NCBI RefSeq assembly: GCF_002210095.1
Contig: NZ_AQQR01000023.1
Location: forward strand, 1 to 57,038
DNA: 57,038 bases
Direction of reading: 5' to 3'
Source: Marinibacterium profundimaris
Lineage (GTDB): Bacteria; Pseudomonadota; Alphaproteobacteria; Rhodobacterales; Rhodobacteraceae
The notes beneath the pieces were generated by a model, which was not told where the DNA came from, did no database searches, and saw only the letters and a program-made list of their open reading frames with translations. The position numbers and the translations under genes were made by a program. The first letter of the stretch is position 1. Every line of letters begins with the position of its first letter. Below, in pieces: positions 929 to 37,211 of this stretch.

Positions 929-953
929 GGAACTCTTCCGGCCCCGGGGCGTT
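929..953 (+). promoter_or_regulatory. EcfG-type promoter of the sigma factor gene
   Basis: GGAAC at 929-933, exactly 16 bases, then CGTT at 950-953. This is a perfect match to the known alphaproteobacterial EcfG consensus (GGAAC-N16/17-CGTT). It lies 27 bp upstream of the sigma factor start, so the gene is probably autoregulated. Confidence 0.8.
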
Positions 954-980
954 CCCCGGTAGGCTGATAGGGAGGTGCGC

Positions 981-1514
981 ATGACCATTCGCAACGATAT
1001 CGTGGAGCTGATCCCCGCCCTGCGCGCATATGCTTGGGTGCTGACCCGGCGTCACGAGGATGTGGACGACTTGGTACAGGACACGCTTGTCAAGGCCATC
1101 GCCAAGGTGGACAGCTTCCAGCCGGGAACCAACCTACGCGCCTGGCTAATCACAATTATGCGCAACACCTTCCTCAACGCCATCGCGCGATCCAAGCGCT
1201 CGACCACCGGGACGGAGGATTGCATCTCGACCGCGCTGTCGACTCCTGCAACGCAGGAATGGTCGGTGCGCGGCTCCGAGTTGATGCGCGCGGTGGCGCG
1301 GCTGCCGCTGCATTACCGCGAGATGCTGGTCATGGTGGTGATGATGGGCGAAAGCTATGAGACGGCGGCGCAGATCTTCGGGGTGCAAGTTGGGACGGTC
1401 AAGAGCAGGGTCAATCGCGGCCGGTCGATGGTGATCGCGGATCTGGAGCGGCGCGCGCCGAACGACCCCCTGCCCCCGCAGTTCAATACGGAACGCTCGG
1501 CCTCGCCGGACTGA
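981..1514 (+). CDS. ecfG: EcfG-like (ECF15) general stress sigma factor
   Basis: The 177-residue protein has sigma region 2 (about residues 11-65; DDLVQDTL, then DSFQPGTNLRAWLITIMRN) and region 4 (about 115-165; LPLHYREMLVMV and GTVKSRVNRGR). There is no extra C-terminal domain. The FxPGTNxxAWL signature and the autoregulatory GGAAC/CGTT promoter point to the EcfG group, which drives the general stress response and is held by NepR and released by phospho-PhyR. I chose ATG at 981 because GGAGG at 971-975 is 5 bp upstream; the in-frame GTG at 975 would overlap that site. The many matching promoters nearby make this sigma factor the likely regulator of the island. Confidence 0.85.
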   Translation: MTIRNDIVELIPALRAYAWVLTRRHEDVDDLVQDTLVKAIAKVDSFQPGTNLRAWLITIMRNTFLNAIARSKRSTTGTEDCISTALSTPATQEWSVRGSELMRAVARLPLHYREMLVMVVMMGESYETAAQIFGVQVGTVKSRVNRGRSMVIADLERRAPNDPLPPQFNTERSASPD

Positions 1515-1523
1515 ACCGGAAGG

Positions 1524-1682
1524 TCAGTGCGGCTCTTCCTTCTGGCGCAGCAGCGCCTGAAGCCGGTGGGCCAGTTCGAGAAGCCTATCCGGCGTCTCTT
1601 CGTCCCGGAGGCTTTCCAGATGGCGGCGTAATTGTTTTTCCAAGTCGTCCTGATCGACAGATTTTTGATGTACGTCGGTCAC
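1524..1682 (-). CDS. small NepR-like anti-sigma factor candidate
   Basis: A 52-residue ORF starts at GTG 1682 behind AGGAGG (1693-1698 on the opposite strand) and ends convergent with the sigma gene, 9 bp from its stop. The core, with LEKQLRRHLESL followed by TPDRLLELAHRLQALL, resembles the two-helix NepR pattern, in which a P-(D/E)-R-(F/L)-xx-LL motif joins two amphipathic helices. NepR proteins bind EcfG and are sequestered by phospho-PhyR. Location beside ecfG supports the call, but NepR is normally co-directional with ecfG or phyR, and here it is convergent. The protein is at the short end for the family. A different small helical protein remains possible. Confidence 0.55.
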   Translation of the reverse strand: MTDVHQKSVDQDDLEKQLRRHLESLRDEETPDRLLELAHRLQALLRQKEEPH

Positions 1683-1885
1683 CTCGGGCTCCCTCCTATT
1701 ATGTGCGGTCCCATACAGGTCTTACGAAGGAATGCACCGTTCGGATCAATCCAATTGCGTTTTTTTCGTAATCTTTCGCCGGGCATGCTACCCCGGCCAC
1801 GCAATTAACGCGAGACGATGCCGGGGGGCATTCGTGTCTCATGTTGCCACCATGCCTCATTCGCCATCCGGCTGGCGTAAATATC

Positions 1886-1911
1886 CCCGGCCCGCCGAGA
1901 TGCAGGCCGGG
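1886..1911 (-). terminator. possible hairpin downstream of the BON gene
   Basis: Arms CCCGGCC (1886-1892) and GGCCGGG (1905-1911) form a 7-bp perfect stem with a 12-base loop. It lies 31 bp beyond the stop of the leftward BON-domain gene. A short AT-rich stretch follows in both directions but there is no real T-run. A second small stem (1921-1933, GTGCC/GGCAC) abuts the stop. The rest of 1683-1941 shows nothing recognisable. Confidence 0.35.
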
Positions 1912-1941
1912 ATTTTCGTTGTGCCTTCGGCACCCGCTGGT

Positions 1942-2556
1942 TCACGCTTGAGCGGTCTGGATGCGCAGGTTGTTCTGCACGTGGAGGACGCCCGTGACCC
2001 TGTCAGCGCAATCCTCGGCGCAGCGCTTGGCCTGGCGCGAAGACACCGTGCCGTCGAGCGTGATCTCCCGATCATGCACGCTCACCGAAATGTCACTGGC
2101 ATCGACACGGGGATGTTCGGTCAGGTGGTCGTTCACGTCTTCCTCGATCCGGGCATCCGAGCGCACGTAGCCCTTTGGCCCGCGACCGCGATGATCGGCC
2201 TCGCGCCGCGCGGTTGCATCTTCGTCGCCGAACCACGAGGCGATCTCGTCTCCGGCACGGTCCATGAAATCGCGCTCATGGCTGCCGTCCTGGCCTCGGT
2301 ACTGGCCCGCATACTGGCCCCGATACCGACCGCGCGGATCAGCCCACGGTGCGCCCTGGGGCGATTGCCGGTCATGGCCCGGGGGCAACGGCCAGCCGTA
2401 TCCCATACCGCCCATCGGACCTGCGGCAAAGCCGTAGGGATCGGGCCAGAACCCGGGGTCGACGGGCTCGTCGCGATGCCGTTGGCGGGGGGCGTTGCGC
2501 CGCGCAAGTTCCTCGCGGGCTTCCTCTTCGGTCATGTTGTCGAAACGTCTGGACAT
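1942..2556 (-). CDS. BON-domain protein with Gly/Arg/Asp-rich linker
   Basis: The 204-residue protein has a charged N-terminus, a Gly/Pro/Arg/Tyr-rich middle (about 30-95, with repeated RGQYxGQY-like units), a SWFGDED motif (about 108-114), and a C-terminal BON domain (about 130-200; VRSDARIEEDVNDHL, then DGTVSSRQAKRCAED). BON domains bind membranes or phospholipids and occur in osmotic-stress proteins such as OsmY. The SWFGDED-plus-BON layout is a recurrent stress-protein type in alphaproteobacteria. No signal peptide is visible. GGAGGAGA lies directly upstream of the ATG, and an EcfG-type promoter lies about 50 bp upstream, which fits induction by the sigma factor at 981. Confidence 0.8.
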   Translation of the reverse strand: MSRRFDNMTEEEAREELARRNAPRQRHRDEPVDPGFWPDPYGFAAGPMGGMGYGWPLPPGHDRQSPQGAPWADPRGRYRGQYAGQYRGQDGSHERDFMDRAGDEIASWFGDEDATARREADHRGRGPKGYVRSDARIEEDVNDHLTEHPRVDASDISVSVHDREITLDGTVSSRQAKRCAEDCADRVTGVLHVQNNLRIQTAQA

Positions 2557-2605
2557 GGTCTCCTCCTTTCAGCCGGTTTCAATGCCGGCCGTCTGATACC
2601 AAGGA

Positions 2606-2631
2606 AACAAGCGCATGCCGCACAATGTTCC
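2606..2631 (-). promoter_or_regulatory. EcfG-type promoter for the BON gene
   Basis: On the minus strand GGAAC (2631-2627) is followed after 17 bases by TGTT (2609-2606). Only the first -10 base differs from CGTT, and the same TGTT variant recurs at seven other sites in the window. It lies about 50 bp upstream of the start at 2556. Confidence 0.65.
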
Positions 2632-2673
2632 AGCGTCTCAGGAAGCTGTGAGCGGGTCCGGCGGCCGGGGATC

Positions 2674-3067
2674 TCAGTCCGGACCCGACCCGTCGGCGAG
2701 CCCGGCCAGAAGTGCGCGCAGGTGCGCCTCGTTCACGGGTTTGCGCAGATGCGGCGCTTCGCGGATCAGCGCGTGATCGGCATAGCGCGAGGGATCGTAG
2801 CCGGTAAGAAAGAGGAAGGGCCGCCTGCCCGTGCAGCATCTGGGCGATCGGCAGGCTGGTGTCGTCGCGCCCGAGGTTGACGTCCAGTATGGCGAGATTG
2901 GGGGGATCCTTTTCAATGGCCGCTATGGCCTTTGACGACGACGCGTGCGGCCCGTCGACGACATAGCCCCATTCCTCCAGGAACATCGCGAGATCCATGC
3001 CGATCAGGAACTCGTCCTCGACCAGCAGGACCCGGGTAGAAGCGGTGTCGCCTGAATTGGCGGGCAA
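2674..3067 (-). pseudogene. single-domain response regulator, frameshifted
   Basis: The N-terminal part reads as a receiver domain (VLLVEDEFLIGMDLA, phospho-acceptor Asp in LAILDVNLG) up to about position 2830. The remainder of the receiver (FLFLTGYDPSRYADH, then RKPVNEAHLRALL with the conserved Lys-Pro) continues in a different frame to a stop at 2674. One extra base near 2821-2832, next to a CAGGCGGCCC stretch, would explain it. Joined, the two parts give a complete receiver of about 130 residues with no output domain, the type that partners with HWE kinases. It sits 13 bp downstream of the HWE kinase pseudogene, in the same direction. A sequencing error cannot be excluded. Confidence 0.75.
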
Positions 3068-3080
3068 TGGATTTCCCTGT

Positions 3081-6000
3081 TCATTCCGCGCCCGGGCGGC
3101 GTTCGATCACGCATTCCAGGCCCGTGCTTTTGTAGACAAGCCGGATGTCGGCATTTAGTTCCCGCGCCAGAAGCGTTTCGATCAAAAAAGTTCCGAAACC
3201 CTGACGCTCCGGCGGCCGCACCTCCGGCCCATCCAACTCCGTCCAGCTCAGCCGCGCCAGGTCGCCGTCGTCCGCGCGGACATGGACCTCGACCTGCCCG
3301 ACTCCATTCCGAAAGGCCCCATACTTCGTGGCGTTCGAGGCCAACTCGTGAAGCGCCAGCCCGAAGGAGAGGGCGGTGGTGGGATCCAGCAGCAGATCGT
3401 CGCCGAAATAGGTGAAGCGGCCGTCGCCGGGCTCGACGAAGGGCGCCGTCTCGGCCTCGGCCAGCGCGCGCAGGCCCTGCCCGGCCCAGTCGCGGCGGGT
3501 TAGTGCATCATGGGTCCGCGAGATCGCCGCCAGCCGGTCGGCCAGGCTGCGCGCCATAGCCTCGGGCGATTCCGCCGTGCGGGCGGTGAACCGCGCCACC
3601 GCCTGCGCCGTGGCAAGGCTGTTTTTCACCCGGTGCTCGAGCTCGGCCAGCAGGATGTCCTTGCGCTCTTCGGCGCGCACGCGCTCGGTCACGTCGATCG
3701 CCGACGGCAGGATCTCGGTGACCTTGCCAGCCTCGTCGGTGAGCGGCACCAGCTGCAGATCGATCACGATGATCTCGCCTCCAGCCATGCGCGATGGCAC
3801 GTCATAGCGCACCGTCTCTCCCGCCGCGGCCCGGGCGATGGCGTCTTTCAGTCCCTCCTGAACCTCCGCACTGAAGGTCCACCACCAGCAATCCCAGAAC
3901 TTCTTTCCGATCACGCCCTCGCGCGTCAGCCCGCCGTGCCCGAGCGCCACCGCATTCGCCTCGGTCAGCGTTCCGTCGGGATCGAGCATGCCGACGAAGG
4001 CGCTCAAACCGTCCTGTAGCCGTTGCAGCCGCTTGCGATGCTCGGCATCGCGCTGCTGGGCGAGGATCTGGTCGGTCACGTCAACGGAAAAGCTGATCAC
4101 GCCCTCGACATTCCCGCGCGAGTCGAACCAGGGCTCCAGCACGCTGCGGAAGATTATGCGCTTGCCGGTCTCGGCGCGGTCGGGCATCACCGCGTCGAGC
4201 AGCACCATCTCGTTCGATACCCCGGACTTGTATGCGTCCAGCAACCGCTGCAGCAATTCGCTGCCCTGCAGCTCCGGCATGGCCACCTCGATCGCTTGGC
4301 CAAGGATCTCGCGCTCGCCGATATCGTGCTGGTTGGCGGGGTTGGAATACGTCGTGATCAGCTCCGGCCCCTCGTGCATCGAGATCGAGACCGGCGCCTT
4401 GTCGAAGATGCGCCGGAGCCGGGCCTCGCTCTCGGCGATCCGGCGCTCCAGTTCGCGCTCATTGGTCACCTCACGCACGCAGCCGCCGATGGCAAAGACC
4501 GTTTCGCCATCCATCACCGGGTAGAAATCGACCTGCCCCTCGCGGACGCGCCCCGGCTCGGCCGGCGTCTCAGAGCGGACCGTGATCCCGCGCACCGCCT
4601 CTCCGGTAACGAAGACCCGCTCCTGCAACTCGGCGATCTCTGCGTGAACGGCGGGAACCATGTCGGCCTGGCGCTGGCCGATATGATCCTCTACCGAATG
4701 GCCGTTGGCCGCCAACTCGTTGTTGATGCGCAGGTATCGCAGGTCTCGGTCCAGCAGGTTGAGCCCGATCGGCGCGGTATCGTAGAGCTGTTCGAGTTCG
4801 GCGTATTGCTCCCGCAGGATCCGCGCGTTCCTTTCGAGCTGGCGCTCGTTGCGCTTGCGATGCGTGATGTTAACGAAGGTGATGATCACGCCGTCCAGCC
4901 GGTTGTCCACCGTGCGATAGGGGCGCGTCCGGGCGATGAAGGTCTCGTCGGTCGCCGCCACCCTGACCTCGCGTTCGATGGGGCGGAGCGAGCGGTGAAC
5001 GGCGGCGGAATCCTCCTTCATCTCGGGATAGTCGACCTTGCTCGCCAGATCGTGGATCGAGCGGCCGATATCACGCTCCTGCACGCCGAACAGCCGGGTC
5101 AGCTCGGGGGTGAAGAGGCGCACGCATCCGGCCGCGTCGATGAACAGCGTGGCGATGTCGGTGCTTTCGAGCAGGTTCTTCAGATCGCTGTTGGCGCGGG
5201 CGAGCTGGCGATTGTTCTCGGTCAACTCGGCGTTGATCGTCTCCAGCTCCTCGTTGATCGACTGGAGCTCCTCGCGACTGGTCTCGAGTTCTTCGTTGGA
5301 GGTCTGCAGCTCCTCGTTCATGCTGAGCAGCTCCTCGTTGGCGCTGCGCAGCTCCTGTTCGGTCGTCTCGCAATCCCGTTCGAGCGCGGCCAGCCGCTTG
5401 CGGGTGAGGATCAGCTCCCGTTCGTAACCGGCCTCGCGCCGGCCGCCGAATTCCGCGGCGAGGTCCTCGGCATTGCCCTGCCGCACCTCGGTCAGCGACA
5501 GCAGCATCAGATCACTATCGCTGCTGAAGGGCGTGACCGCCACGTCGAAGAGCAGCGGGGTGTCGCCCCGCTCGACCGCGACGTTGAGTATCTCCGCTTC
5601 GAGCCCAGTCTCCCGTGCTTCGACAAGGGCCGATTTCGCCGGCAGGCGCAGGTCCTTGGTCAGGAAATCTCCCAGAGCGATGCTGGTGGTTCCCCTCGCA
5701 GGCTTCACCAGAGCGGTCATCGCCTCCGAGACATAGACGACCTCATCATGGCGGTTGACCAAGGCGAAGGGCGCGGCGCGGTGCTGCAGGAAGAGCTGTT
5801 CGGCCTGGGCCTCCATGCTGTCGGCGGGTCTGGTGTGCGCCGCCGTGACCCCGACGGCGGCCGGGAGCCGGTCACCGAATGCTGCGGTAGGCTGTGGGAA
5901 ATGGCCGAAAAACCAGGCGGGGCCTGATCGTCGCGCTGGAACAGCCTTGACGGGCGGTCGAGCGTCCGAAAATACCGTTCGCTGCGGCCCAGCGTTTCGG

Positions 6001-7263
6001 AGGGGCCCAGCCACAGAAACCCGCCCGGGTTCAGCCCGTAATGGAACCGCGGCAGAATGGTCTCCTGGCTGTCGGCGTTGAGATAGATCATCACATTGCG
6101 GCAGGAGACCAGATCGAGCTTCGAGAAGGGCGGATCCTGCAGCAGGTTGTGCGGAGCAAAGACGCACATTTCGCGCAGCTCCGAATTCACCTGCCACACC
6201 GCGCCCGCTGCCGCCAGGGACTTTTCGCGCCGTTCCTCGGTCAGCCCCTCGATGGAGGCCTCGGTATAGCGCCCAGACCGCGCCTGGCGCAGCGCGTCGA
6301 TGTCGATATCGGTCCCGAAGATCTTCCAGGGCCGGGTATCGCCCGTGCTCTGGCGCATCTCGGCCACGAGAATGGCCAGCGAGAACACTTCCTCGCCCGT
6401 CGAACAGCCGGGCACCCAGATGCGGAAACCACTCTGATCGATGTCGAGCAGAGGCCGCAGGACCTTGGCTTGCAGGCTCTCGAAGACTTCGGGATCCCGG
6501 AAGAACTGGGTCACGCCGATCAGGAAGTCCTGCATCAGCAGCTGCCGTTCCTCGGGCTTCTGGTCGAGGGTGCGCAGATAGCCCTCGATCGAGCTTTGCC
6601 GCAGCAGCGACATGCGCCGCGCAATGCGGCGGATCAGGGTGCCGGGCTTGTAGCCGGAAAAGGAATTGCCGGCCTCTTCTTCCAGCCGGCCGAGCACATC
6701 GCCGAGCTGCGCCTCGTTCTGTTCGAGCAGATGATCGCGGCCGACGCGCTCTTCCAGGTCGCGCCGGTGATCAACGATGTCCAGGATCCGCGCGGGCATG
6801 TCCTGCGGCTTTCCTGCACCAGAGCGATGCCGCCGCGCATCTTGATCGCCCGCACGCCCATCGTCCCGTCCGATCCCGTGCCCGAAAGGACCGCGGCAAA
6901 GGCCCGCCGCCCTGCCGTATCGGCCAGGGACCGGAAGAACCGGTCGATCGGCGTGCGCACGCCTTCCTCGCGGTCGCGGTCCTCAAGCCGGAACCGGCCC
7001 GCCTCGATGGTCAGAAACCGGCCGGGCGGAATGATGAAGACGTGATCCGGCTCGATTGTGCCGCCATCCTCGATCTGGGTGACCTGCACCGGCGTATGGG
7101 CCCGCAGGAGCTTGTCCATGAGCGAGGGCTGGTCCGGCGAGAGATGCTGCACCACCACGCAGGCAAGGCCGCTGTCATTCGGCAGGGCCTGCACGAACTC
7201 CTGCAATGCCTCGAGCCCGCCAGCGGAGGCGACGATCCCCACGATAGGCGGCAATTTGGGCAT
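3081..7263 (-). pseudogene. CheB-CheR-PAS-HWE histidine kinase, broken
   Basis: Domains read in order across three frames. CheB methylesterase runs from ATG 7263 (IVGIVASAGGLEALQEF, VVVQHLSPDQPSLMDKL, LSGTGSDGTMGVRAIK). CheR methyltransferase follows from about 6800 (RRIARRMSLL, FFRDPEVF, WVPGCSTGEEVFSLA, LVSCRNVMIYL). Then come a Glu-rich coiled coil (about 5170-5400), about four PAS domains, and an HWE kinase (EHRVKN H-box; SFGLALHELASNATKYGA N-box). CheB joins CheR out of frame near 6808, and the family's usual CheB end and linker (the MPRSAIATGLVD-type stretch) is missing. CheR joins the PAS part out of frame between about 5880 and 5930. The intact form would be a hybrid stress sensor; here only the PAS-HWE part (about 900 residues) stays open. 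Confidence 0.8.
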
Positions 7264-7419
7264 CGTACATCCTCTCCCAGAGCTGATCTTGTCCCGATCC
7301 TGCTTTGGTGGCAGGGACGCGTTCACGCCTCGGGTCTCAGGCCAAACAGCCGGCTGATCGATTGCGACCGGCCGAAGTTTGAAGTTAATGTGGTGGAAAG
7401 AAAAATCTAGGGTTTGAAT

Positions 7420-8886
7420 ATGATGGGAGACGGATCGTCCCCCCCGACCGCCAACCCTCTCGGGACCGGTGTCGAAGGGTTTGACGATATTCTCAACGGC
7501 GGGCTCCCCGCCGGCCATGTCTACATGGTGAGTGGCGCGCCCGGGACCGGCAAGACCACGCTCGGGCTCCAGTTCCTGCTGGCCGGCCGGGCCGCGGGAT
7601 CCTCGCGCGGCATGCTGTACCTCACGCTCTCGCAGACAGCCGAGGAATTGCGTGGCGTGGCCCGGTCCCACGGCTTCGATCTCAGCGGGATCAACATTGT
7701 CGATCTTCTCGCGGACGAGATCCGCGACATCGGGAATGCGCAAAGCGTATTGCACAGCTCCGAAGAGGAGCTGGCGGGCCTCATTACCGCGATCGAGACG
7801 GCCGTCGCGACCCATGATCCCGAGCGGATCGTCATAGATGGCCTGTCCGAGATACGGCTCGTCAGCAGTTCGCTGCTGCGCTTCCGGCGCAGCCTGCTGG
7901 GCCTGAAGGTCCGGCTGAGCGAGCGCGAGACCACGGTGATGATGATCGACGGATTCGACGACGAGGACATGACCAAGACGGCCGAACTCATCGCCCACGG
8001 CGCCATCCGCATGGACTGGCAGGCGCCGGATTACGGCGTGGCCCATCGGCGCGTCCAGGTCATCAAGATGCGCGGCGCGGCGTTCGTGGAGGGCTTTCAC
8101 GACATGCGCATCGCCACGGGTGGGCTGGAAGTCTCGCCGCGCTTGGTGCCGCCGTCGCAGCCGGTCGATATCGACGACTGGGAGCTGCGTTCGGGTGTCG
8201 AGGCGCTCGACGACCTCTGCGGCGGCGGTCTGCCCGGCAACGGAACGACGCTGATCTCCGGCAGCACAGGCGCCGGCAAGTCGATCCTCTGCACCATCTA
8301 CGCGCGCCAGACGGCCCTGCGCGGGCACCGGGCGTCGGTCTTCCTGTTCGAGGAGATGCAGGAGGATTTCGTGAAGCGCTCGCGTTCCCTGAATATGGGG
8401 CTCGACGAGCCGGAAATAGCCGAGCGCTGCAAGCTGGTTCATATCGACCCGGCCGAGCTGTCGCCGGGCGAAGTCTTTGACCGGATCGTCCACGAGGTCG
8501 AGGCCGGCACCCGGCTGGTGATCCTCGATAGCCTCACCGGCTTCTTCCACGCGCTGCCCGAAGGGCGTGGCATGCTTGTGCAGTTCAACGCGATCCTCAA
8601 CTATCTCAAGCGCCAGAAGGTCGCCGTCCTGATGACGCGCAACATCTCCGGCACCGGCCCGGAAGAAGCGAGTACCATGGATCTCGACGTCAGCTTCGTC
8701 GCCGACAACCTGATCCGGATGCGGCAGATCCAGACCGGGGGCCAGATCGAGCGGGTGATCTCTGTCGCCAAGAAGCGCTATGGCGCGCATTCCCGCGAAG
8801 TGCGCCGGATGCGGATCGAAGCCGGGGGCGTGACGCTCGAAGCCTATGCCGGGGATCCGCCGGCCATGACCCGCGGCGATGGCTGA
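7420..8886 (+). CDS. KaiC-like tandem RecA-fold ATPase
   Basis: The protein has two KaiC-type RecA domains. The first (about residues 14-245) has Walker A GAPGTGKTT at 39-47 and a Walker B-like RIVIDGLSE. The second (about 255-480) has Walker A SGSTGAGKS near 281-289 and Walker B RLVILDSLTGF. The paired glutamates needed for KaiC hydrolysis are present in the second domain (LFEEMQED), but the matching spot in the first reads TLSQTAEE, so the first may bind but not turn over ATP. No kaiA or kaiB is present. Such KaiC homologues are linked to stress signalling and usually sit with histidine kinases. The kinase gene behind it overlaps by 8 bp. The start is uncertain (ATG 7420 or 7423; TTG 7414 is also open). 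Confidence 0.8.
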   Translation: MMGDGSSPPTANPLGTGVEGFDDILNGGLPAGHVYMVSGAPGTGKTTLGLQFLLAGRAAGSSRGMLYLTLSQTAEELRGVARSHGFDLSGINIVDLLADEIRDIGNAQSVLHSSEEELAGLITAIETAVATHDPERIVIDGLSEIRLVSSSLLRFRRSLLGLKVRLSERETTVMMIDGFDDEDMTKTAELIAHGAIRMDWQAPDYGVAHRRVQVIKMRGAAFVEGFHDMRIATGGLEVSPRLVPPSQPVDIDDWELRSGVEALDDLCGGGLPGNGTTLISGSTGAGKSILCTIYARQTALRGHRASVFLFEEMQEDFVKRSRSLNMGLDEPEIAERCKLVHIDPAELSPGEVFDRIVHEVEAGTRLVILDSLTGFFHALPEGRGMLVQFNAILNYLKRQKVAVLMTRNISGTGPEEASTMDLDVSFVADNLIRMRQIQTGGQIERVISVAKKRYGAHSREVRRMRIEAGGVTLEAYAGDPPAMTRGDG

Positions 8887-9949: not shown

Positions 9950-9977
9950 GCCTTGGCAAAGGCTCCGACGCGGGCCA

Positions 9978-10550: not shown

Positions 10551-10742
10551 GATCCCGTCCTATCGTATCTGCGAGGTCGGACCCGACGGACTTACCGCGG
10601 GCGGCTTACGCACCGGATGCAGATCCGGCAAATGACACTCCTTCGACGGGTAAACGCAGCACGACAAGGATTTGATCCATCCTGGATGCTAGTTTTATTT
10701 CGCACGGCATGCCCGGAACTGCCGGAACCTCCCCGGCCAATT

Positions 10743-10768
10743 GGAACAAAACGCCAGCGCTTCCTGTT
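10743..10768 (+). promoter_or_regulatory. EcfG-type promoter for the secreted repeat protein
   Basis: GGAAC at 10743-10747, 17 bases, TGTT at 10765-10768, 36 bp upstream of the start at 10805. The rest of 10551-10804 shows no gene I can support. Confidence 0.65.
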
Positions 10769-10804
10769 CAGCCCATCAATGTCGTTAGCAAAGGAGGAAT
10801 TCTC

Positions 10805-11293: not shown

Positions 11294-11431
11294 TCACAGG
11301 CATTGCGCTTGGGTCCGGAAAAACGCCCCGACGCAACCTGACATGAACGCCATCAAACGGTTCCCCGGAATCTGGCCGCCGGCCTCTCTGTCGCTCAGGG
11401 GGGGCCAGCGTGGCCTTGGGCGTCGGGCGGA

Positions 11432-28956: not shown

Positions 28957-30016
28957 GGGCGTCTCCTTCCTGGCGGGATGCGGTTGTGGGCTTCGGCCAC
29001 TCTTTGTCGTCATGGTGGGCGCAGCTCAGCCGCCGGTCCCAGCTCTGTCGAACAATGCTCAAGCGGAACTGTTCCCGCCCCCGCACCTCGGGGCGTATCT
29101 CGCGCCATTTACGGATCCGTCCGGCCACGGCCTCGACATCCCCGCAATCCATGCACTGCCCGCCCGAGGACACCACTTCGTCATTGGCGCCCAGCCCAGC
29201 ATGGACCAGCGCAGGCGTGCCCACCGCATTGGCCTCCGCGATCACCAGGCCAAAGGTCTCGGCGAATTCGGTCTGCGGGTAGAACAGGCACAGCGCGCCC
29301 CGCATCCGGTCCACGAGATCGGGATGCCTGAGCGTGCCCAGCACCCGCACGCCGTCGGGCACGCGGCCGGTATCCCATCTCTGGTAGCCCGGATCGGCGA
29401 CCTCCAGCACCAGCTCGGGCATCGCCTGGCGCAACCGGGCGAAGCTCTCGTAGACCTGCCGGAGGCCCTTGTGGGGCGCGCTGGCGAAGAGCAGGCGATT
29501 GCGGTCCACCGGTGTCGCGTCGGGTTGCAGATCGTCCGCGATCGGGTTGTGGATGTACCCGATATCGGGCAGCGCGGCGCACGTGGTGCTCAGAAACCCC
29601 GTCAGCCGCATGGCATGGGCGCGCGAGACACAGACCACCTCGATCCCCGCGGCCGCCAAGGCCGGTCCCATCTTGCGGTTGTGGCGTCCCGGATAATTGT
29701 GCAGCCATAGGATGATCCGGCGCTGCGGCAACCGCTTGCGGAGCTTGATCGCCACCTTCCAGGCGTTGATCACGATAAGCGCGTCGCAATCGTCAAGCCG
29801 GACGTCCGCCAGGTGCGGCAGAGGCAGGTACCGTACCATCCGGTCCTGCTCTGCCTGGCCACGACCCGCCTGGTAAAGGGTGAAGGCGCAGCTGTCGGCC
29901 AGCGCCCCGACCACGCGAAGCACGGTCGACTCGGTGCCGCCAAGCGGATCGCGCCCAAGCGACGCCAACGTATAACCTGCGGGGCAGCAGGGATCGACCA
30001 GTATCACCCGGGTCAT
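28946..30016 (-). CDS. family 4 glycosyltransferase
   Basis: The 356-residue GT-B protein has a Gly-rich N-terminal domain (LGRDPLGGTESTVLRVVGAL), a middle SRAHAMR segment, and a C-terminal donor-binding domain with RLLFASAPHKGLRQVYESF and the E-x7-E region ETFGLVIAEANAVGTPAL. The retaining GT4 family includes MshA and BshA, which pair with PIG-L deacetylases in thiol cofactor pathways. No membrane segment. It overlaps the GT2 gene upstream by 4 bp. Sugar and acceptor unknown. Confidence 0.86.
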   Translation of the reverse strand: MTRVILVDPCCPAGYTLASLGRDPLGGTESTVLRVVGALADSCAFTLYQAGRGQAEQDRMVRYLPLPHLADVRLDDCDALIVINAWKVAIKLRKRLPQRRIILWLHNYPGRHNRKMGPALAAAGIEVVCVSRAHAMRLTGFLSTTCAALPDIGYIHNPIADDLQPDATPVDRNRLLFASAPHKGLRQVYESFARLRQAMPELVLEVADPGYQRWDTGRVPDGVRVLGTLRHPDLVDRMRGALCLFYPQTEFAETFGLVIAEANAVGTPALVHAGLGANDEVVSSGGQCMDCGDVEAVAGRIRKWREIRPEVRGREQFRLSIVRQSWDRRLSCAHHDDKEWPKPTTASRQEGDAHVA

Positions 30017-30996
30017 GCCGTTTCACCGATCTCAGCGGTGCCTGCCCGGTCTGCGGCTCTGGCGGGACCAAGCCGGCGCACCCACATATCAACCCGGTCG
30101 CGCGTCCCCTTGGTCATCAGCGCCCCGGACCGGGCGAGCAGGGCCGGATTGCTGACGAAACCGATGCTGACCCCCGAGAGATCCACCGGCACCGGCGGCA
30201 CCTCGCCCGACGCACGCCAGCGCGCGACGCTGTCCCAGACGGCCTGACGGTCGGCCTTGCGGCGGGCGCTGTCGTAATCCGATGCCGCGGACTGGGTCAG
30301 AGAATCCGGCGTCTCGATCTTGGTCAGCAGGGGCTCCGGGATGACCCAGACCACCTCGCCCGCCATGATCAGCCGGTTGCGGAATTCGCGATCCTCTTCG
30401 ATGCAATCGGAAAACCCGCCCAGGCGGGCGAAGACCGACACGCGGAAGAGCCCCGAGTTCACATGGGTCCAGTCGCCCGGCACAGTCGAGCCCATCTGCA
30501 GGTTGGGAAAGAAATCGTCGACCAGCGACAGGCTGCGCGAGATCTCCACGCGACGGCCATCCGGCAGAAGCAGCTCGTGATGGGTGAGCACGCAGCCCAT
30601 ATCCACCCGCGATCCCGGCTCCCGCCCTGCCGAGCCCCAGTTCAAGCAGGCGTCAGCATGGATCGCGGGCTGGGCCATCACCCGCGCCTGGCGCAGGACC
30701 TTGTCGCGGTGCGGCAAATCGTCGGAATCGTGGAAGGTGCAGGCATCGGCGGCGGTCAGCGCAAGGCCCACGTTCTTGGCCTGCGCCGTGCCCGCGTTTT
30801 CGGCCAGCTGAATGTACTGGAACCGCGGATCGGGGAACCAGGACGAAAGCCGGTCTCGCGTGGCGTCGGTCGATCCGTCGTCGACCACGGTGACCACCAG
30901 ATTGCGATAGCTCTGCCCGAGCGCCGCCTCGACGGCCTGACCGATCAGATGCGCGCGGTTGAATGTCGGAATGACGATATTGACCAGCGGTTCCAT
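30013..30996 (-). CDS. family 2 glycosyltransferase
   Basis: The 327-residue GT-A protein starts with VNIVIPTFNRAHLIGQAVEA, has VVTVVDDGSTDATRDRL, the metal-binding DSDD in CTFHDSDDLPHRDK, and EEDREFRNRL as the catalytic-base region. It is cytoplasmic. I chose ATG 30996, which shares one base with the stop of the upstream gene (TAATG); the longer open frame upstream is antisense to nothing useful and lacks a ribosome site. It probably adds one sugar early in the pathway. Confidence 0.87.
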   Translation of the reverse strand: MEPLVNIVIPTFNRAHLIGQAVEAALGQSYRNLVVTVVDDGSTDATRDRLSSWFPDPRFQYIQLAENAGTAQAKNVGLALTAADACTFHDSDDLPHRDKVLRQARVMAQPAIHADACLNWGSAGREPGSRVDMGCVLTHHELLLPDGRRVEISRSLSLVDDFFPNLQMGSTVPGDWTHVNSGLFRVSVFARLGGFSDCIEEDREFRNRLIMAGEVVWVIPEPLLTKIETPDSLTQSAASDYDSARRKADRQAVWDSVARWRASGEVPPVPVDLSGVSIGFVSNPALLARSGALMTKGTRDRVDMWVRRLGPARAADRAGTAEIGETA

Positions 30997-32477
30997 TAGG
31001 CGGTTCCCTCCCTCTGAGATGTCAACGAGATGCGATAGGCTTTGATGTCTGCAGCAGCGGCGAGGCCCAACGGCAGGAGGCTCATAAGGGCAAGACATCC
31101 CAGCCCCGGAAGAAGGCCCGGACCCTGGCCCCACAAGAGCGGCACGGCGGCGGCGGCAAAGAGCAGCGCATGATCGCAAAGCCCGCCTGCGAAGCCAGCG
31201 CGGGCTGCGATCTTCGGGGTCACCACGAAGCGGATGTGCCGAGACAGCGCGCCCTCGACGGCTCCGCGCGCCGACACGGGCACCAGGGCCAGCCGCGTCG
31301 TCACCGCACGGGCGGCATCGCCAAATGACCACCGTTCACGCAACGCCGCACCGACGACACTTGTGACCGAAGTCGTGAAGACCAGCAGGATCGTCAGCGA
31401 GGACAGGCCCTCGAGCATCGGACGCAGCGCAGTGCCCGGAACGGCGAGGGCAGGGCCGTATTTCGAGCCCAGCAGCGAGGCGGCCGGAACCAGCGCTGCA
31501 TTGGGCCAGGCCAACAGCTGCGACAGGATCAGCAGCCGCTGCCGCGACCGTGTTCCGCGCCATGCCGGCAGGGCATCGCGCCGGTGATGATGAAGCAGCG
31601 TCCGAAGATTGCCGGCGGTCCAGCGCAAGCGCTGTTTCGCCAACGCGTCGAAGGTCAGCGGCATCATCCCCCTGCCGACCACGTCCTCGACATAACGCCC
31701 GCTGTATCCCGCCAGGCAAAGCCGCAGACCCAGCTCGGCATCCTCGGTCACCGTGGCGCCCGACCAGCCACCGACCCGGGCCAGCGCCGTCCGGTCGATG
31801 ACGCTCAGCGTCCCGGTCAGCAGAACGGCTTCGTCGCGGCTGGCGCGGCGGGCGTAGGTCTTGAAGTAATCCGCCAATTCCAGGTCGAGCCCGCCGCCCG
31901 CGGGCGCAGGTCGGGCATAGGCCTGCGGAAACTGCACGTAATCATGGCGCCCGCCCTCCAGCGCACATTCCGCGCGCTGGAGGAAATCCGGTTCGACCAC
32001 GTAATCGGCATCAATGGTGACCACATGGGTGGCATGCGCCGCCGTCCGTTCCAGCGCGATGTTGAGCGCCCCGGCCTTCGCACCGTCCACCTGGTCAAAA
32101 TGGTAGAAACTGACCAGCCGCATATTCGCCGTCCGATCCCGAACCGGCTGCCAGAGTGCCGGATCGGAGGTATTGTTGTCGATGACGATGATCTCGAAGC
32201 GGTCGGCGGGATAGACTTGGCCGCAGAGCGCTCCGATGGTGCGCAGCACCACATCGGGCGGCTCGTTCCGAATGGCCAGGTGCACCGAGAAGACCGACCG
32301 CCCGCCACGCCCGCCAACCCGCTCCGTCGGACGGCCCGATCGCAAGCGGGCAGTCAGCCGGATCAGCGCCGACATCATCTGCAGCGCTGCAGCCAGGAGG
32401 ACGGCTGGGAGAGCAAGCGCCGGAAAGACCAGCGCGGAGAGAAAGACCAGGACGAACAGGCCCGACGACCGGCTCAT
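30996..32477 (-). CDS. membrane GT2 polysaccharide-synthase-like glycosyltransferase
   Basis: The 493-residue protein has an N-terminal transmembrane segment (about 5-35), a cytoplasmic GT2 domain (about 60-290) and three or four C-terminal membrane helices. Synthase-type motifs are visible: IDNNTSD, DADYVVEPDFL (DxD), TEDAELGLRL (TED) and a QRLRW box (KQRLRWTAGNL). This architecture is shared by NodC, cellulose synthase and related processive enzymes, so it may make or extrude a lipid-linked or secreted glycan. ATG 32477 precedes the first helix; earlier ATGs are in frame. First gene of the seven-gene unit, with an EcfG-type box 147 bp upstream. Confidence 0.85.
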   Translation of the reverse strand: MSRSSGLFVLVFLSALVFPALALPAVLLAAALQMMSALIRLTARLRSGRPTERVGGRGGRSVFSVHLAIRNEPPDVVLRTIGALCGQVYPADRFEIIVIDNNTSDPALWQPVRDRTANMRLVSFYHFDQVDGAKAGALNIALERTAAHATHVVTIDADYVVEPDFLQRAECALEGGRHDYVQFPQAYARPAPAGGGLDLELADYFKTYARRASRDEAVLLTGTLSVIDRTALARVGGWSGATVTEDAELGLRLCLAGYSGRYVEDVVGRGMMPLTFDALAKQRLRWTAGNLRTLLHHHRRDALPAWRGTRSRQRLLILSQLLAWPNAALVPAASLLGSKYGPALAVPGTALRPMLEGLSSLTILLVFTTSVTSVVGAALRERWSFGDAARAVTTRLALVPVSARGAVEGALSRHIRFVVTPKIAARAGFAGGLCDHALLFAAAAVPLLWGQGPGLLPGLGCLALMSLLPLGLAAAADIKAYRISLTSQREGTA

Positions 32478-32623: not shown

Positions 32624-32648
32624 AACAGCGCTTGCGAAGAAATGTTCC
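32624..32648 (-). promoter_or_regulatory. EcfG-type promoter for the glycan-katE unit
   Basis: On the minus strand GGAAC (32648-32644), 16 bases, TGTT (32627-32624). It lies 147 bp upstream of the first GT2 start and back to back with the Ku gene. Confidence 0.65.
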
Positions 32649-32748: not shown

Positions 32749-33573
32749 ATGGCGTCGAGAGCGATTTGGAAAGGCCAGCTGCGGCTTTCGCTCGTGTCGA
32801 TCCCGATCGAGATCCATTCGGCCCGCAATTCAGGCTCTCGCGTCTCCTTTCGCCAGATCCATGGCCCCTCGGGCGAGCCAGTCCGCTACCAGAAGACCGT
32901 TCAGGGCGTCGGTCCGGTCGAAAATGACGATATCCTGAAGGGCTACGAGACCGATGACGGCGAATACATCCTGCTTGAGCCTGATGAGATCGACGCAATC
33001 CGACTGGAAACCAAGAAGACCCTCGAATTGGTTCAGTTCGTCGATACCAACGAAATCGCACCGATCTGGTTCGACCGGCCCTATTACGTCGTCCCCACCG
33101 ATGAGCTAGCCGAGGATGCCTACCGCGTCGTTCGCGACGCGCTGCGTAAATCCGGCAAGGCCGGTCTCGGCCAGTTGACCATGCGCGGCAAGGAATACCT
33201 CTGCGCACTGCGGCCCTGCGGCGATGGCATCCTTCTGGAAACCCTGCACTACGAGCAGGACATACGCGACGCTGACCCGCTATTTTCCAGTATCGAGGAT
33301 GCCGCTTCGGACGACGAACTCCTCGAGGTCGCAACCCAGCTGATCGAGAAGAAATCCGCGCCCTTCGATGCCGGCGCCTTCGAAGATCATTACGCCGCCG
33401 CGCTGCGCGATCTGATCGACGCCGAGATGAAATCGAAGAAAACCCCGCGCGCCAGGGCCGGCGACACGGACGGCGCCGAGGCCGGGAATGTCGTCGATCT
33501 GATGGATGCGCTCAAGAAGAGCCTGAAGCAGGGCAAGCAGGGGTCCGGCCGCAGCCGGAAGAAGGCGTCATGA
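32749..33573 (+). CDS. ku: Ku-type DNA end-binding protein (NHEJ)
   Basis: The 274-residue bacterial Ku opens MASRAIWKGQLRLSLVSIPI, with KGYETDDGEYILLEPDEID (about 64-82) and DPLFSSIEDAA, all Ku-core features; a Lys-rich tail (about 220-274) is the usual LigD-recruiting and DNA-binding extension. It forms a ring on double-strand breaks. GAGGAGG lies just upstream of the ATG. The LigD gene overlaps the stop by 4 bp, so the pair makes a complete two-component end-joining system. Confidence 0.93.
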   Translation: MASRAIWKGQLRLSLVSIPIEIHSARNSGSRVSFRQIHGPSGEPVRYQKTVQGVGPVENDDILKGYETDDGEYILLEPDEIDAIRLETKKTLELVQFVDTNEIAPIWFDRPYYVVPTDELAEDAYRVVRDALRKSGKAGLGQLTMRGKEYLCALRPCGDGILLETLHYEQDIRDADPLFSSIEDAASDDELLEVATQLIEKKSAPFDAGAFEDHYAAALRDLIDAEMKSKKTPRARAGDTDGAEAGNVVDLMDALKKSLKQGKQGSGRSRKKAS

Positions 33574-36005
33574 GCACGCTCGACCGCTACCGCGAGAAGC
33601 GCGATTTCAGCGTCACGCCGGAGCCGCGCGCCGAGCTGGTCGAGGCCGGGGGCGACCGATTGTCTTTCGTTGTCCAGAAGCACGACGCGCGGCGGCTGCA
33701 TTTCGATTTCCGGCTGGAATGGGACGGCGTGCTGCTGTCCTGGGCCGTGACTCGCGGCCCCTCGGCCGATCCCTCCGAGAAACGCCTGGCCGTCAGGACC
33801 GAGGATCACCCGGTGGCATATGGCGATTTCGAAGGGACGATCCCCGAGGGCGAATACGGTGGCGGCACGGTGATGCTCTGGGACAGCGGCTGGTGGGAGC
33901 CGCTGCATGATCCGGCGCAGGGCCTGAAAGAGGGCAAGCTGCATTTCCGCCTGCACGGCGCGCGGATGAAGGGCGGCTGGGTCCTGGTACGGATGCGCGC
34001 CAGGAAGGGCGAGAAACGCGACAACTGGCTCTTGATCAAGGAGCGCGACGATTTCGCAGGACGCAGCGCCGACGCGCTGATCAACCGGCACCGCACCAGC
34101 GTCAGCACCGGGCGCGCGATGCGGGCCATCGCCGCCGACAAGCCCGCCGCCGATCCGGCCGACCATGGCAAGCCACGCCCGCGCTTTCACAAGGTGCAAC
34201 TGGCCACGCTGAAGAATGCCCCGCCCGGCGGCGAAGGCTGGCAGCACGAGGCCAAGTTCGACGGCTATCGCTGCCTGATCGCGCTCGGCAAAGGCGGCGC
34301 ACGGCTCTACACCCGCAACGGCAAGGACTGGACCGACCGCTTCGGAGCCCTCTGCGCTTCGGTCACCGCCCTGCCCTGCGATGCCGCCCTGATCGACAGC
34401 GAGGTGATCGCGGGCGGCGGCGGTGGCGATTTCTCATCCCTCCAAAAGGCGCTGAAATCCGGTGGTCCGCTGACCTGCTACGCCTTCGACCTGCTGCATC
34501 TCGACGGCAAGGACCTGACCCTCCAGCCGCTCTCGGACCGGCGCGCCGCGCTCGAACGCCTGTTCTCCGGTCTGCCTCCGCGCGGCCCCCTGCGCCTGAG
34601 CCCGGTGATCGAAGGCGAGGGTGCGGCCGCGCTTGATGCAATCTGCCAGGCCGGGGGCGAAGGGTTGATCTCCAAGCGCCGCGATGCACACTACCGCTCC
34701 GGTCGCAGCAGCGATTGGATCAAGTCCAAGTGCATCCGCAGGGCCGAGTTCTTCATCGCCGGCCGGGCACCTTCGGACAAGCGCGGTCGCCCCTTTGCCT
34801 CGTTGCTTCTGGGCAGCCACGAGGCCGGGCGGCTGGTCTATCGCGGCCGCGTGGGCACCGGATTCGACGCGGACGACTTTGCCGAACTCAACGCGGCGCT
34901 CGACAGCATCACCCGCAAGACACCGCCCTTCGACGGCGATCTGCCCCCTGAAGCCGATGGCGCACAATGGGTGACGCCTAAGCTGGTGGCCGAGGTCGAG
35001 TACACCGAGTTCACCGCCGAGGGCCGCATCCGCCACGGGGTCTACAAGGGCCTGCGCCAGGACAAGGAGGCATCCAACGTGAGTGCGAAGGCGGAAGCCG
35101 AGATCGACAGCGATGCGACGATCGGCGGGGTGAAGGTTTCGAGCAGCGACCGTGTGGTCTTTCCCGATGCGGGGCTGACCAAGGGCGACGTGGCGCGGTA
35201 CTACGAGGTGGTGGCGGACAGGATGCTGACCCATGTCGCTGACCGGCCGCTGTCGCTCCTGCGCTGTCCCGATGGCATTTCCGGCGACTGTTTCTTCCAG
35301 AAGCACGCGGGCAAGGGCTTTCCGGACGGGATCAGATCCATTCCGATCGAGGAAAAGGACGGCGGTACCGAGGATTACATGTATGTCTCGACCCCCGGCG
35401 GCCTGATCGGCGCGGCACAGATGAGCACGATCGAGTTCCACATCTGGGGTGCAGCGCGCGACAGGCTCGACCGGCCCGACCGCATGGTCTTCGACCTCGA
35501 TCCGGACGAAGGGCTGGACTTTGCCGACGTGAAGCGGGCCGCCGGAGAGGTCCGGGCCGCGCTCGATGCCTGCGGGCTCGCCTCTGTGCCGATGGTCACC
35601 GGGGGCAAGGGCGTGCACGTGATCGTGCCTTTGCGTCGGATCTCGGAATGGGACAGCGTTACCTACTTCTCACGCGTGCTTGCCACCATTTTCGCCACGC
35701 GCGATCCGGCCCGCTACACTGCCACCATGTCGAAAGCCAAACGCAAGGGACGGATCTTCATCGATTGGCTCCGCAATGAACGCGGCGCGACGGCGGTAGC
35801 GCCCTATTCCCTGCGGGCCCGCGGCGGCGCCGCGGTGGCCCTGCCGCTCACTTGGGACGAGCTGGGAGATCTCGAGCGGCCCGACACCTTCCATCCCGCC
35901 GATGTCGAAGCCCGGCTGGACCGACCCTGCCCGCTCGACCAGGTCGAACCGCGGGGCATCGGCAAAGGTGCCGTAAGAGCGCTCGAAGACTTGTCCAAAT
36001 CCTGA
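33570..36005 (+). CDS. ligD: multifunctional ATP-dependent DNA ligase D
   Basis: The 811-residue protein has three domains in the order phosphoesterase (about 1-190; SFVVQKHDARRLHFDFRLE, EGEYGGGTVMLWDSG), ATP-dependent ligase (about 205-515; nucleophile Lys229 in HEAKFDGYRC, then EGLISKRRDAHYRSGRSSDW) and primase-polymerase (about 525-811; VFPDAGLTKGDVARYYEVVA, DLDPDEGLDFADV with the metal Asps). This is the usual proteobacterial order. It processes and seals ends held by Ku. The length is normal and all three active sites look intact. Confidence 0.94.
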   Translation: MSTLDRYREKRDFSVTPEPRAELVEAGGDRLSFVVQKHDARRLHFDFRLEWDGVLLSWAVTRGPSADPSEKRLAVRTEDHPVAYGDFEGTIPEGEYGGGTVMLWDSGWWEPLHDPAQGLKEGKLHFRLHGARMKGGWVLVRMRARKGEKRDNWLLIKERDDFAGRSADALINRHRTSVSTGRAMRAIAADKPAADPADHGKPRPRFHKVQLATLKNAPPGGEGWQHEAKFDGYRCLIALGKGGARLYTRNGKDWTDRFGALCASVTALPCDAALIDSEVIAGGGGGDFSSLQKALKSGGPLTCYAFDLLHLDGKDLTLQPLSDRRAALERLFSGLPPRGPLRLSPVIEGEGAAALDAICQAGGEGLISKRRDAHYRSGRSSDWIKSKCIRRAEFFIAGRAPSDKRGRPFASLLLGSHEAGRLVYRGRVGTGFDADDFAELNAALDSITRKTPPFDGDLPPEADGAQWVTPKLVAEVEYTEFTAEGRIRHGVYKGLRQDKEASNVSAKAEAEIDSDATIGGVKVSSSDRVVFPDAGLTKGDVARYYEVVADRMLTHVADRPLSLLRCPDGISGDCFFQKHAGKGFPDGIRSIPIEEKDGGTEDYMYVSTPGGLIGAAQMSTIEFHIWGAARDRLDRPDRMVFDLDPDEGLDFADVKRAAGEVRAALDACGLASVPMVTGGKGVHVIVPLRRISEWDSVTYFSRVLATIFATRDPARYTATMSKAKRKGRIFIDWLRNERGATAVAPYSLRARGGAAVALPLTWDELGDLERPDTFHPADVEARLDRPCPLDQVEPRGIGKGAVRALEDLSKS

Positions 36006-36127
36006 CCGGTCCGCCCCACGACGTCCGCCGTGGTTGCCTTGCGCGTCCCGGGGGCCTTACCGCTTGATGCAGTGGTCTTGCGGAACAGTTGAAGCCGCAG
36101 AGCACCTGCAGCGCCAAGAGATCAGAG

Positions 36128-37153
36128 TCAGCGCGTCCCTAACAGCAACAACGCGACCTTGCGCCCTTCCCAGTCGCTGCGCAGAGCCATTCCCAGATGC
36201 GTTGTCTCCCCGTCGAGAAGGCTTACCCGGCGACCATGTGCCTCCAGCCAGTCGCCGAGAAACGCCCGGACATCGCCCGCTGTCGCGACCGTGCCGCAGC
36301 CGCCGCATTCACTGACAAGTGCCTGCAACCGACCGAACTCGCGCAGTTCCTGCGGAAATGTCCCGAATGGATCGAGGCTTTCGATCCGCATTCCGCCAAG
36401 ATCCGCAGGCAACGCCTCCATGGCCGCCTCGGTAAGGGCGGGGCTCCTGTTGACGGGCGCTACACCTGCGCGGGTTCGTTCTGCGTTCAGCACCTCTTGC
36501 GCGATGTCACTGGCACCTCCGGCTTCGATTTCCGTGCCATCCCGGCCTCGGGAATTGCCGGGTCCGGCGAACGTCTGGACGGCGTAGATGCGCCCGTCCA
36601 ACGCAACGGCGCCGAAACCGAACCGCGCCAGCCCCTCGCTCAGGATGTTGGCCCGGTGCCCGGGGCTGTCCATCCAGCCCTCATGGAATGTCGCCACCCG
36701 TTCGCGGTCGAGCGCACCGCAGTTCCTACATCTCGCGATGTTCTCGGCGACGCGTTCCCACTCCCCTCCCCCGGCATCGAGGAACCTGTCGCGCGGGCCA
36801 TCCCCCTGGGGCGTGGTGTGGGAGTAATAGCCGCGCTTCAGCATGTCTTCAGCGTGTTTCTGCGCCGCCTCGTCAAGGCTGGCCCCCGGCTCGAGGGGTG
36901 GTAGCCCTTCGTCGGTTCGGGACTGGTTGACGTGCTGCAGGGCTGCATCGCGCAGGGCAGCCCTATCCTCGGCACGGGCCATCTGGCTGCCAATGAGCAG
37001 CAAAAATCCGAGAAGGAGAGCAAGGGCAGCCCCGTTTGGCAGTCGCAAGGTCTGCGCCGTCGTGTTCCAGCTGGCAATACGATTCCGTGCCAAGGCCGTC
37101 TGGCCGCCAGTTCCCGAAACCCGCAACGGATTGCACCACATCTGCTTTTCCAT
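36128..37153 (-). CDS. secreted CAP/SCP-domain protein
   Basis: The 341-residue protein has a signal-like helix (LALLLGFLLLIGSQMARA, about 34-51) after a long basic start and a CAP domain (about 60-190; LRDAALQHVNQSRTDEGLPPL, HAEDMLKRGYYSHTT, VAENIARCR, DSPGHRANILS, RFGFGAV) with the His/Glu cavity residues in place. The remaining 150 residues form a second, degenerate CAP-like repeat (AQEVLNAERTRAGVAPVNRS). Role unknown; CAP proteins bind lipids or act on extracellular targets. GGAGG 5 bp ahead supports ATG 37153; 37165 is possible. Confidence 0.82.
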   Translation of the reverse strand: MEKQMWCNPLRVSGTGGQTALARNRIASWNTTAQTLRLPNGAALALLLGFLLLIGSQMARAEDRAALRDAALQHVNQSRTDEGLPPLEPGASLDEAAQKHAEDMLKRGYYSHTTPQGDGPRDRFLDAGGGEWERVAENIARCRNCGALDRERVATFHEGWMDSPGHRANILSEGLARFGFGAVALDGRIYAVQTFAGPGNSRGRDGTEIEAGGASDIAQEVLNAERTRAGVAPVNRSPALTEAAMEALPADLGGMRIESLDPFGTFPQELREFGRLQALVSECGGCGTVATAGDVRAFLGDWLEAHGRRVSLLDGETTHLGMALRSDWEGRKVALLLLGTR

Positions 37154-37186
37154 TTTGTCCTCCATGCGCAAACTCTCGAAGGCCGG

Positions 37187-37211
37187 AACAGAACGACGGC
37201 ACCATTGTTCC
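37187..37211 (-). promoter_or_regulatory. EcfG-type promoter for the CAP gene
   Basis: On the minus strand GGAAC (37211-37207), 16 bases, TGTT (37190-37187), 34 bp upstream of the CAP start. Confidence 0.65.

Follow-up and report, generated by a model that had tools for sequence, protein, structure and literature searches.

A probably plasmid-borne EcfG-type sigma factor of Marinibacterium profundimaris and the promoter base preferences that set its kind of locus apart from that of the host's EcfG1

Which sigma factor reads the EcfG-type promoters that cluster around an EcfG-type sigma gene on a mobile-looking contig, and is it the same factor for all of them? The question is raised by contig C16 of the Marinibacterium profundimaris genome (6.15 Mb in 60 contigs, all scanned here), which we analysed whole and call the window (57,038 nt). 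It encodes a non-canonical EcfG-type (ECF15-like) sigma factor, hereafter the window sigma, and a sequence-only reading had assigned nine GGAAC-N16/17-YGTT sites on it to one stress regulon. Our comparison suggests a different arrangement, probably a two-tier relay in which EcfG1, the canonical factor of the same genome, switches on the window sigma, which in turn reads a changed promoter.

Given such a claim, the sites themselves come first. GGAAC-N16/17-YGTT occurs 14 times in the window against 1.10 expected, and the comparison with shuffled sequence that the earlier reading had called for came out as enrichment, with a maximum of 5 matches in 100 shuffles and none reaching 14. All nine of its sites were found, at the right positions and on the right strands, one of them CGTT (929, plus strand) and eight TGTT. 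Five further matches lie at 10271(+), 13235(-), 29051(-), 37185(+) and 39687(-), and the full NGTT composition is 12 TGTT, 2 CGTT, 2 GGTT and 1 AGTT. The sigma gene, the sites and the genes next to them are listed here.

48 to 875, plus strand: DUF305 protein, upstream of the sigma gene and next to the sigma gene in Phaeobacter too.
929 to 953, plus strand: predicted EcfG1-type CGTT promoter, 28 bp before the sigma gene.
981 to 1514, plus strand: non-canonical EcfG-type (ECF15-like) sigma factor of 177 amino acids with Sigma70_r2, PhyR_sigma2 and Sigma70_r4_2 matches; a GTG start at 975 is possible.
1524 to 1682, minus strand: small NepR-like open reading frame (ORF), candidate anti-sigma factor, convergent with the sigma gene.
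2606 to 2631, minus strand: predicted TGTT promoter, 50 bp before the BON-domain gene 1942-2556(-).
10743 to 10768, plus strand: predicted TGTT promoter, 37 bp before the secreted-repeat (Lipoprotein_15) gene 10805-11293.
13235 to 13259, minus strand: TGTT site without a clear gene.
13942 to 13966, minus strand: predicted TGTT promoter, 69 bp before a 65-amino-acid ORF, 13676-13873(-), and 294 bp before the called gene that follows, 13325-13648(-).
14770 to 14794, minus strand: predicted, well-formed TGTT promoter before an apparent trehalose-phosphatase gene in broken frames, 13898-14724; 46 bp to a 48-amino-acid ORF and 137 bp to the next ORF.
18172 to 18197, minus strand: predicted TGTT promoter, 184 bp before a gene run from 17988 to 14914(-).
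18303 to 18327, plus strand: predicted TGTT promoter, 159 bp before the SDR-like gene 18486-19217, which two GH13 enzymes follow (19286-22680).
29051 to 29075, minus strand: TGTT site within a glycosyltransferase gene; the next gene (27823-28956, minus strand) starts 95 bp further on.
32624 to 32648, minus strand: predicted TGTT promoter, 147 bp before the glycosyltransferase gene 30996-32477(-) and the genes following it down to 25412.
37187 to 37211, minus strand: predicted TGTT promoter, 205 bp before the CAP-domain gene 36128-36982(-).
38597 to 38621, minus strand: GGTT site, 9 bp before the called start of the ExoD-type gene 37965-38588(-); the distance is too short unless the true start is further inside the gene.
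39290 to 39314, minus strand: GGTT site upstream of the BON-domain ORF 38705-39085(-).

Left of 39.4 kb the 12 TGTT sites (one mirror pair counted twice) face 0.2 predicted from off-spacing controls, in which the same boxes were placed at 22 other spacings. The idea that the sites are an effect of chance or composition draws on single sites with no gene behind them, namely 10271, which lies inside a gene, 13235, and the CGTT at 39687. Such single sites may indeed be chance matches; for the set as a whole the shuffles and the enrichment of the 16/17 spacing alone make this explanation barely credible. To the right of 39.4 kb stand no TGTT site (0.1 predicted off-spacing) and one CGTT, 39687(-); since only about 5 sites would be expected there at the left-hand density, the absence is modest evidence for the confinement to the left part proposed earlier. 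The claim that each site lies within about 150 bp of a gene start is approximately right, the sites at 18172, 18303 and 37187 being further off. The two weaker versions it had named are a site before the Ku gene at 32672, which we read as GGAAA-N17-CGTT, and the GGTT at 39290(-). Because GGAACA...TGTTCC is self-complementary and 37187(-) with its mirror image 37185(+) forms one 27-bp element, we also looked at mirror pairs. A preference for bidirectional promoters was rejected: 64 of 712 sites were paired at non-canonical loci, where the off-spacing controls gave 122 of 1114, and at EcfG1 loci the figures were 6 of 131 for the sites and 48 of 214 for the controls.

Of the three PhyR-type sigma2 domains in the genome, two belong to PhyR and to an EcfG, both on contig C12, and the third is that of the window sigma. 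On C12 one stretch carries NepR, EcfG1 and PhyR together, and no match to the genome's own PhyR was found within the window. The 12 NGTT sites of this EcfG1 locus begin with C in 8 cases, G in 3, A in 1 and T in none. The window's only exact CGTT at a gene start is that of the sigma gene. Given this position and its agreement with the chromosomal EcfG1 promoters, the most likely role of this box is as an input from EcfG1; the nine sites are thus probably not one regulon. The absence of TGTT from the EcfG1 locus, together with the TGTT sites that surround the sigma gene in the four relatives of the window subclade, speaks against the idea that the window sigma is inactive or marginal and that TGTT is read by EcfG1 or by another extracytoplasmic function (ECF) sigma factor of the host. 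Sinorhizobium meliloti RpoE5, whose overexpression is reported to have raised one gene only (PMC6180224), gives that idea some footing, and we nevertheless regard it as very unlikely.

Outside the window, contig C38 (12.3 kb, analysed from 1 to 12290) has 4 TGTT sites and no other NGTT. Its genes include a cytochrome oxidase subunit I, a PQQ dehydrogenase-type protein, an SDR protein, an ExoD-type protein and a GAF-HisKA_2 kinase, and relatives of some of them lie near the sigma gene in Phaeobacter (L046); in Phaeobacter sp. 22II1-1F12B the surroundings of the orthologous sigma gene combine relatives of C38 genes with relatives of window genes, side by side. The proposal that a sigma gene and much of its regulon share one segment therefore stands as far as the EcfG-type sites cluster with the sigma gene, and falls short in that the regulon is not confined to this contig. 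In the whole genome TGTT occurs 59 times, 12 of them within this 57-kb contig, against 24 for a reversed-pattern control, and YGTT 154 times against 89.

We compared the locus with relatives: the best 80 of a larger number of loci from a profile search of named genomes, with flanks of up to 10 kb, plus further loci from plasmids and from relatives of the source genome. L122 turned out to be an EcfG1 locus, identical to L140, and does not enter the non-canonical site counts; L042, on the same contig as L055, was omitted from the base counts, the tree and the locus-level comparison. L143, which has no PhyR match, stands outside the 18 EcfG1 loci of the base counts and inside the tree, the residue table and the pooled EcfG1 total of the locus-level comparison. 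In a tree of 108 sigma rows the window sigma falls within an 80-row non-canonical clade (split 100/100), which stands apart from the EcfG1 rows and from eight mostly Caulobacteraceae rows. The same clade holds Rhizobium etli EcfG2, whose place within it is unsure because of a long branch, and the S. meliloti row L120, presumably RpoE5, given that the published letters of the rpoE5 promoter (PMC6180224) are present upstream of it. The window sigma is of the ECF15/EcfG type by its sigma2 and sigma4 regions, its kinship to EcfG and to the PhyR sigma2 domain, and the associated GGAAC-N16/17-NGTT promoters. It departs from canonical EcfG1 in having no PhyR adjacent, a NepR-like ORF with a weak profile match, and -10 boxes other than CGTT at its predicted targets.

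The first -10 base differs between the two kinds of locus. Of the 131 sites at the 18 EcfG1/PhyR loci, 92 have C; the 642 sites that lie away from the sigma gene at the remaining loci (the eight mostly Caulobacteraceae rows included) have C 156, G 257, T 147 and A 82 times. The contrast gives a Fisher p-value of 6e-23 for sites that are not independent, and because sites in related loci are not, the comparison was repeated at the locus level with loci of 3 or more sites. In Rhodobacterales the C fraction per locus was 0.38-1.0 at 16 EcfG1 loci and 0-0.5 at 16 non-canonical ones (Mann-Whitney 2e-6), in a set that includes family f1, assigned to the order via two contigs matching the Paracoccaceae records L055 and L122. 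All five genomes for which both loci were fetched show the same direction of contrast, with C still at 3 of 9 sites on the non-canonical side of G020. Two neighbouring positions change as well: the base after GGAAC goes from C (80/131) at EcfG1 loci to A (325/642) at the others, and the base before the -10 box from G (86/131) to C (265/642). Summed over 84 loci, one of them EcfG1, spacing 16 counts 485 sites and spacing 17 counts 169, against 29-65 for every other spacing from 8 to 33. In the window's own subclade T is preferred, at 33 of 47 target sites from six loci or contigs, and the earlier suggestion that this sigma factor prefers T there is supported in that its nearest relatives share the preference. 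At the level of sequence, both the enrichment and the two base preferences are firmly established. A plasmid of Paracoccus marcusii (L036, 11921-22702) carries a very regular GGAACA-N15-GGTT set, with 8 G, 2 T and no C in a 30-kb stretch.

The sigma genes of the clade themselves are preceded, in most relatives, by a C-type box. Exact NGTT sites directly upstream of the sigma gene have C in 30 of 42 cases, and an exact site is missing at 47 of the 88 loci, of which 33 show a C-type box with a single mismatch instead, reading CATT in 31 cases; a one-mismatch control inside the sigma genes of the same loci gave C 4 times and T 15 times. NATT boxes at the sigma gene are C in 32 of 35 cases. Elsewhere in the same loci NATT is near background (seen against expected, C 28/20.6, G 25/21.9, A 14/14.5, T 11/9.4), and at EcfG1 loci C was seen 9 times against 3.9 expected. 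In Phaeobacter sp. 22II1-1F12B a CGTT lies before the DUF305 gene, the direct upstream neighbour of the sigma gene.

These patterns also bear on the simpler possibility of one broad regulon, in which both sigma factors read NGTT alike and C marks the strongest boxes, T and G weaker ones that set a lower expression. Published work lends it weight: in vitro, CGTT is the best box for both EcfG paralogs of Sphingopyxis, which may or may not belong to the present clade, and replacing TGTT by CGTT increased the output (PMC7083833). In Methylobacterium extorquens the targets of EcfG are reported to have C/GGTT, with promoters common to the paralogs (PMC4814048). C sites also persist at rhizobial loci. 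What a single graded code does not lead one to expect is that three positions change together at non-canonical loci, or that the sigma gene keeps C-type boxes, CATT included, and its neighbours mostly do not. Moreover, R. etli EcfG1 and EcfG2 are reported each to prefer their own promoter, and only 1 of 19 EcfG2-dependent units matches the EcfG1 motif (PMC3892343). We therefore consider one broad regulon unlikely, though it is the strongest of the alternatives.

The relay has several points against it, beyond the Sphingopyxis and M. extorquens reports. It is read from base identity and from nothing else. Among the 42 exact sites before sigma genes, 12 have a base other than C; rhizobia and other groups show a weaker shift, with C still at 145 of 505 sites at non-canonical loci; and the 43 TGTT sites outside the window and C38 are also more than the 24 of the whole-genome control. 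For R. etli, EcfG1 and EcfG2 were interpreted by the authors as acting in parallel rather than serially (PMC3892343), and R. etli katG, reported to be EcfG2-dependent, has neither an exact nor a one-mismatch site upstream, so that its dependence may be indirect or the motif incomplete. In S. meliloti, overexpressed RpoE5 left SMb20091 as its single putative target (PMC6180224).

Set beside known systems, R. etli EcfG2 (PF00052, on p42f), described as a non-canonical EcfG, is like the window sigma in its clade, in being plasmid-borne and in having mostly non-C sites nearby (C at 1 of 11 around ecfG2, p42f 54.4-67 kb). It is unlike it in that no C-type box was found before ecfG2, G is commoner than T nearby and katG is without the motif. 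EcfG1 is reported not to stimulate ecfG2 directly in E. coli, and ecfG2 expression is about half without EcfG1 (PMC3892343); the missing C-type box is in line with this partial independence. No motif was found for the EcfG2-dependent genes in that report. S. meliloti RpoE5 (SMb21484) is of the same clade and RpoE2-dependent (RpoE2 activates rpoE5; PMC6180224), with a C-type promoter of its own (GGAACC..GCATT) and a NepR-like ORF on the opposite strand just downstream, which the same paper notes. Both reports, of RpoE2 activating rpoE5 behind a C-type box and of EcfG1 failing to stimulate ecfG2 directly where no such box was found, agree with the proposed relay. It differs in its single putative target and in mixed first -10 bases nearby (A 2, C 2, G 2, T 2). 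A stretch of pSymB (L146, 94-104 kb) contains clustered EcfG-like boxes, whose -10 elements include GGTT and GATT among others. The EcfG1/PhyR/NepR system on C12 shares the -35 box, the spacing and the sigma family with the window, and differs in its CGTT boxes, its linked PhyR and the residues described below. Sphingopyxis granuli EcfG1/EcfG2 and Caulobacter SigT/SigU likewise form hierarchies of two EcfG paralogs, for which the passages available to us report shared targets or a promoter preference and describe no switched -10 base (PMC7083833, PMC8103513).

Is there a basis for such a switch in the protein? Nearly all rows of the two groups differ at four positions, W40 of EcfG1 being I or L in the non-canonical clade, L60 being M, S66 being T or N and D77 being G; residue 66 is mostly Ser in EcfG1 and mostly Thr or Asn in the window clade. 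Position 66 aligns with the Mycobacterium tuberculosis SigH residue that we number N92 from PMC6411747, reported there to contact the -11 pair, adjacent to the first -10 base. It follows T loosely, with T at 25 of 56 sites for rows with Asn and 101 of 540 for rows with Thr, five of the nine Asn rows coming from one subclade. Residue 66 is a candidate part of the promoter switch. Residue 69 was rejected as the determinant of C: it is Arg in 19 of 19 EcfG1 rows, but among non-canonical rows those with Arg69 have a C fraction of 0.18 against 0.29 for Lys.

The 52-amino-acid ORF at 1524-1682(-) scores 14.9 bits against Pfam NepR, below the cut-off of 25.7. A NepR-like ORF lies near 21 of 88 sigma loci against 0 of 88 control stretches, some of them shortened by locus ends; this count comes from a looser pattern, a first one having matched 11 of 88 and missed the window's ORF. 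Another ORF, in L041, was placed in the NepR alignment and does not look like NepR. The product of 1524-1682 may restrain the window sigma.

Taken together, we infer from these promoter letters that the window would form a second tier of the alphaproteobacterial general stress response. EcfG1, encoded with PhyR and NepR on C12, would read GGAAC-N16/17-CGTT and, via the CGTT box at 929, activate the window sigma. The latter would read GGAACA-N15/16-TGTT in its own subclade, and mostly GGTT in other relatives, and would turn on the BON-domain and small proteins, the trehalose and GH13 sugar genes, the glycosyltransferase run, the SDR-like gene and the CAP protein, possibly restrained by the NepR-like ORF.

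The remaining features of the window concern its replicon and the neighbours of the sites.

3081 to 5816, minus strand: PAS-HWE histidine kinase; its ORF opens at 6197.
7420 to 9949, plus strand: KaiC-like ATPase with an HWE histidine kinase directly after it, inside the stress segment.
9978 to 10550, minus strand: receiver-domain-like protein (Response_reg E 1e-4, below the cut-off).
32749 to 36005, plus strand: Ku and LigD of non-homologous end joining, with only the weak box at 32672 before Ku.
39922 to 42841: pieces of IS21-type ATPase and transposase on the minus strand, and a tyrosine integrase, 41744-42841(+).
43218 to 47527, mixed strands: likely plasmid maintenance block, with a gene without family (43218-44306, minus), a ParA-like gene (44303-45673, minus) and a Rep3 initiator (46274-47527, plus).

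The contig probably represents all or part of a plasmid, because it carries both a replication initiator and a partition gene, as in Rhodobacterales RepB-type plasmids, and the initiator shares 89% identity with RepB-Ia of plasmid CP031586; with the IS21-type genes and the integrase, the description of the segment as mobile-looking was fair. A tRNA call at 41424-41517(-), within the transposase region, is doubtful and has an odd anticodon. The sigma gene, the HWE kinases, the KaiC-like ATPase and the genes that we label as of stress-typical kinds all lie left of 39.4 kb. Relatives of the receiver-like protein occur within about 6 kb of the sigma gene in L034, L039 and L047, and those of gene 13325-13648 near it in L039, L047 and L048; relatives of the SDR-like gene in L046 and L034 likewise stand behind a TGTT site. 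The apparent trehalose-phosphatase is spread over several frames on the minus strand with a Pfam match for 13898-14293 only, and we read the 48-amino-acid ORF (14578-14724) as its start. The run from 17988 to 14914 encodes a protein without a family above the cut-off, then Holin-X-type, DUF3618 and BrkB proteins. Around other non-canonical sigma genes we saw cytochrome P450 genes in Rhizobium (L147), Martelella (L035) and Roseivivax (L034), and ferritin-like genes in Rhizobium and Martelella.

At least two EcfG copies are reported for half of all completed alphaproteobacterial genomes, the extra ones without a satisfactory explanation (PMC3892343), and a 2021 review calls the promoter pattern of non-canonical EcfG "yet to be determined" (PMC8103513); the portions of the literature available to our search give no motif for this clade. 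For Rhodobacterales and Rhizobiales we tentatively put forward, as a serious possibility, that the whole accessory EcfG clade has shifted to another promoter code, which differs in the first -10 base and beside both boxes, with most of its own genes kept under the old one, and that the general stress response would then run in one direction, as a relay from one code to a second and largely separate one, its second tier often on plasmids or islands and residue 66 a candidate part of the switch. The comparison proposes a promoter pattern for non-canonical EcfG factors and a rule for which paralog genes EcfG1 feeds. If true, this would explain the rarity of the EcfG1 motif before R. etli EcfG2-dependent genes, and a mobile replicon could bring its own regulon and yet plug into the stress signal of its host.

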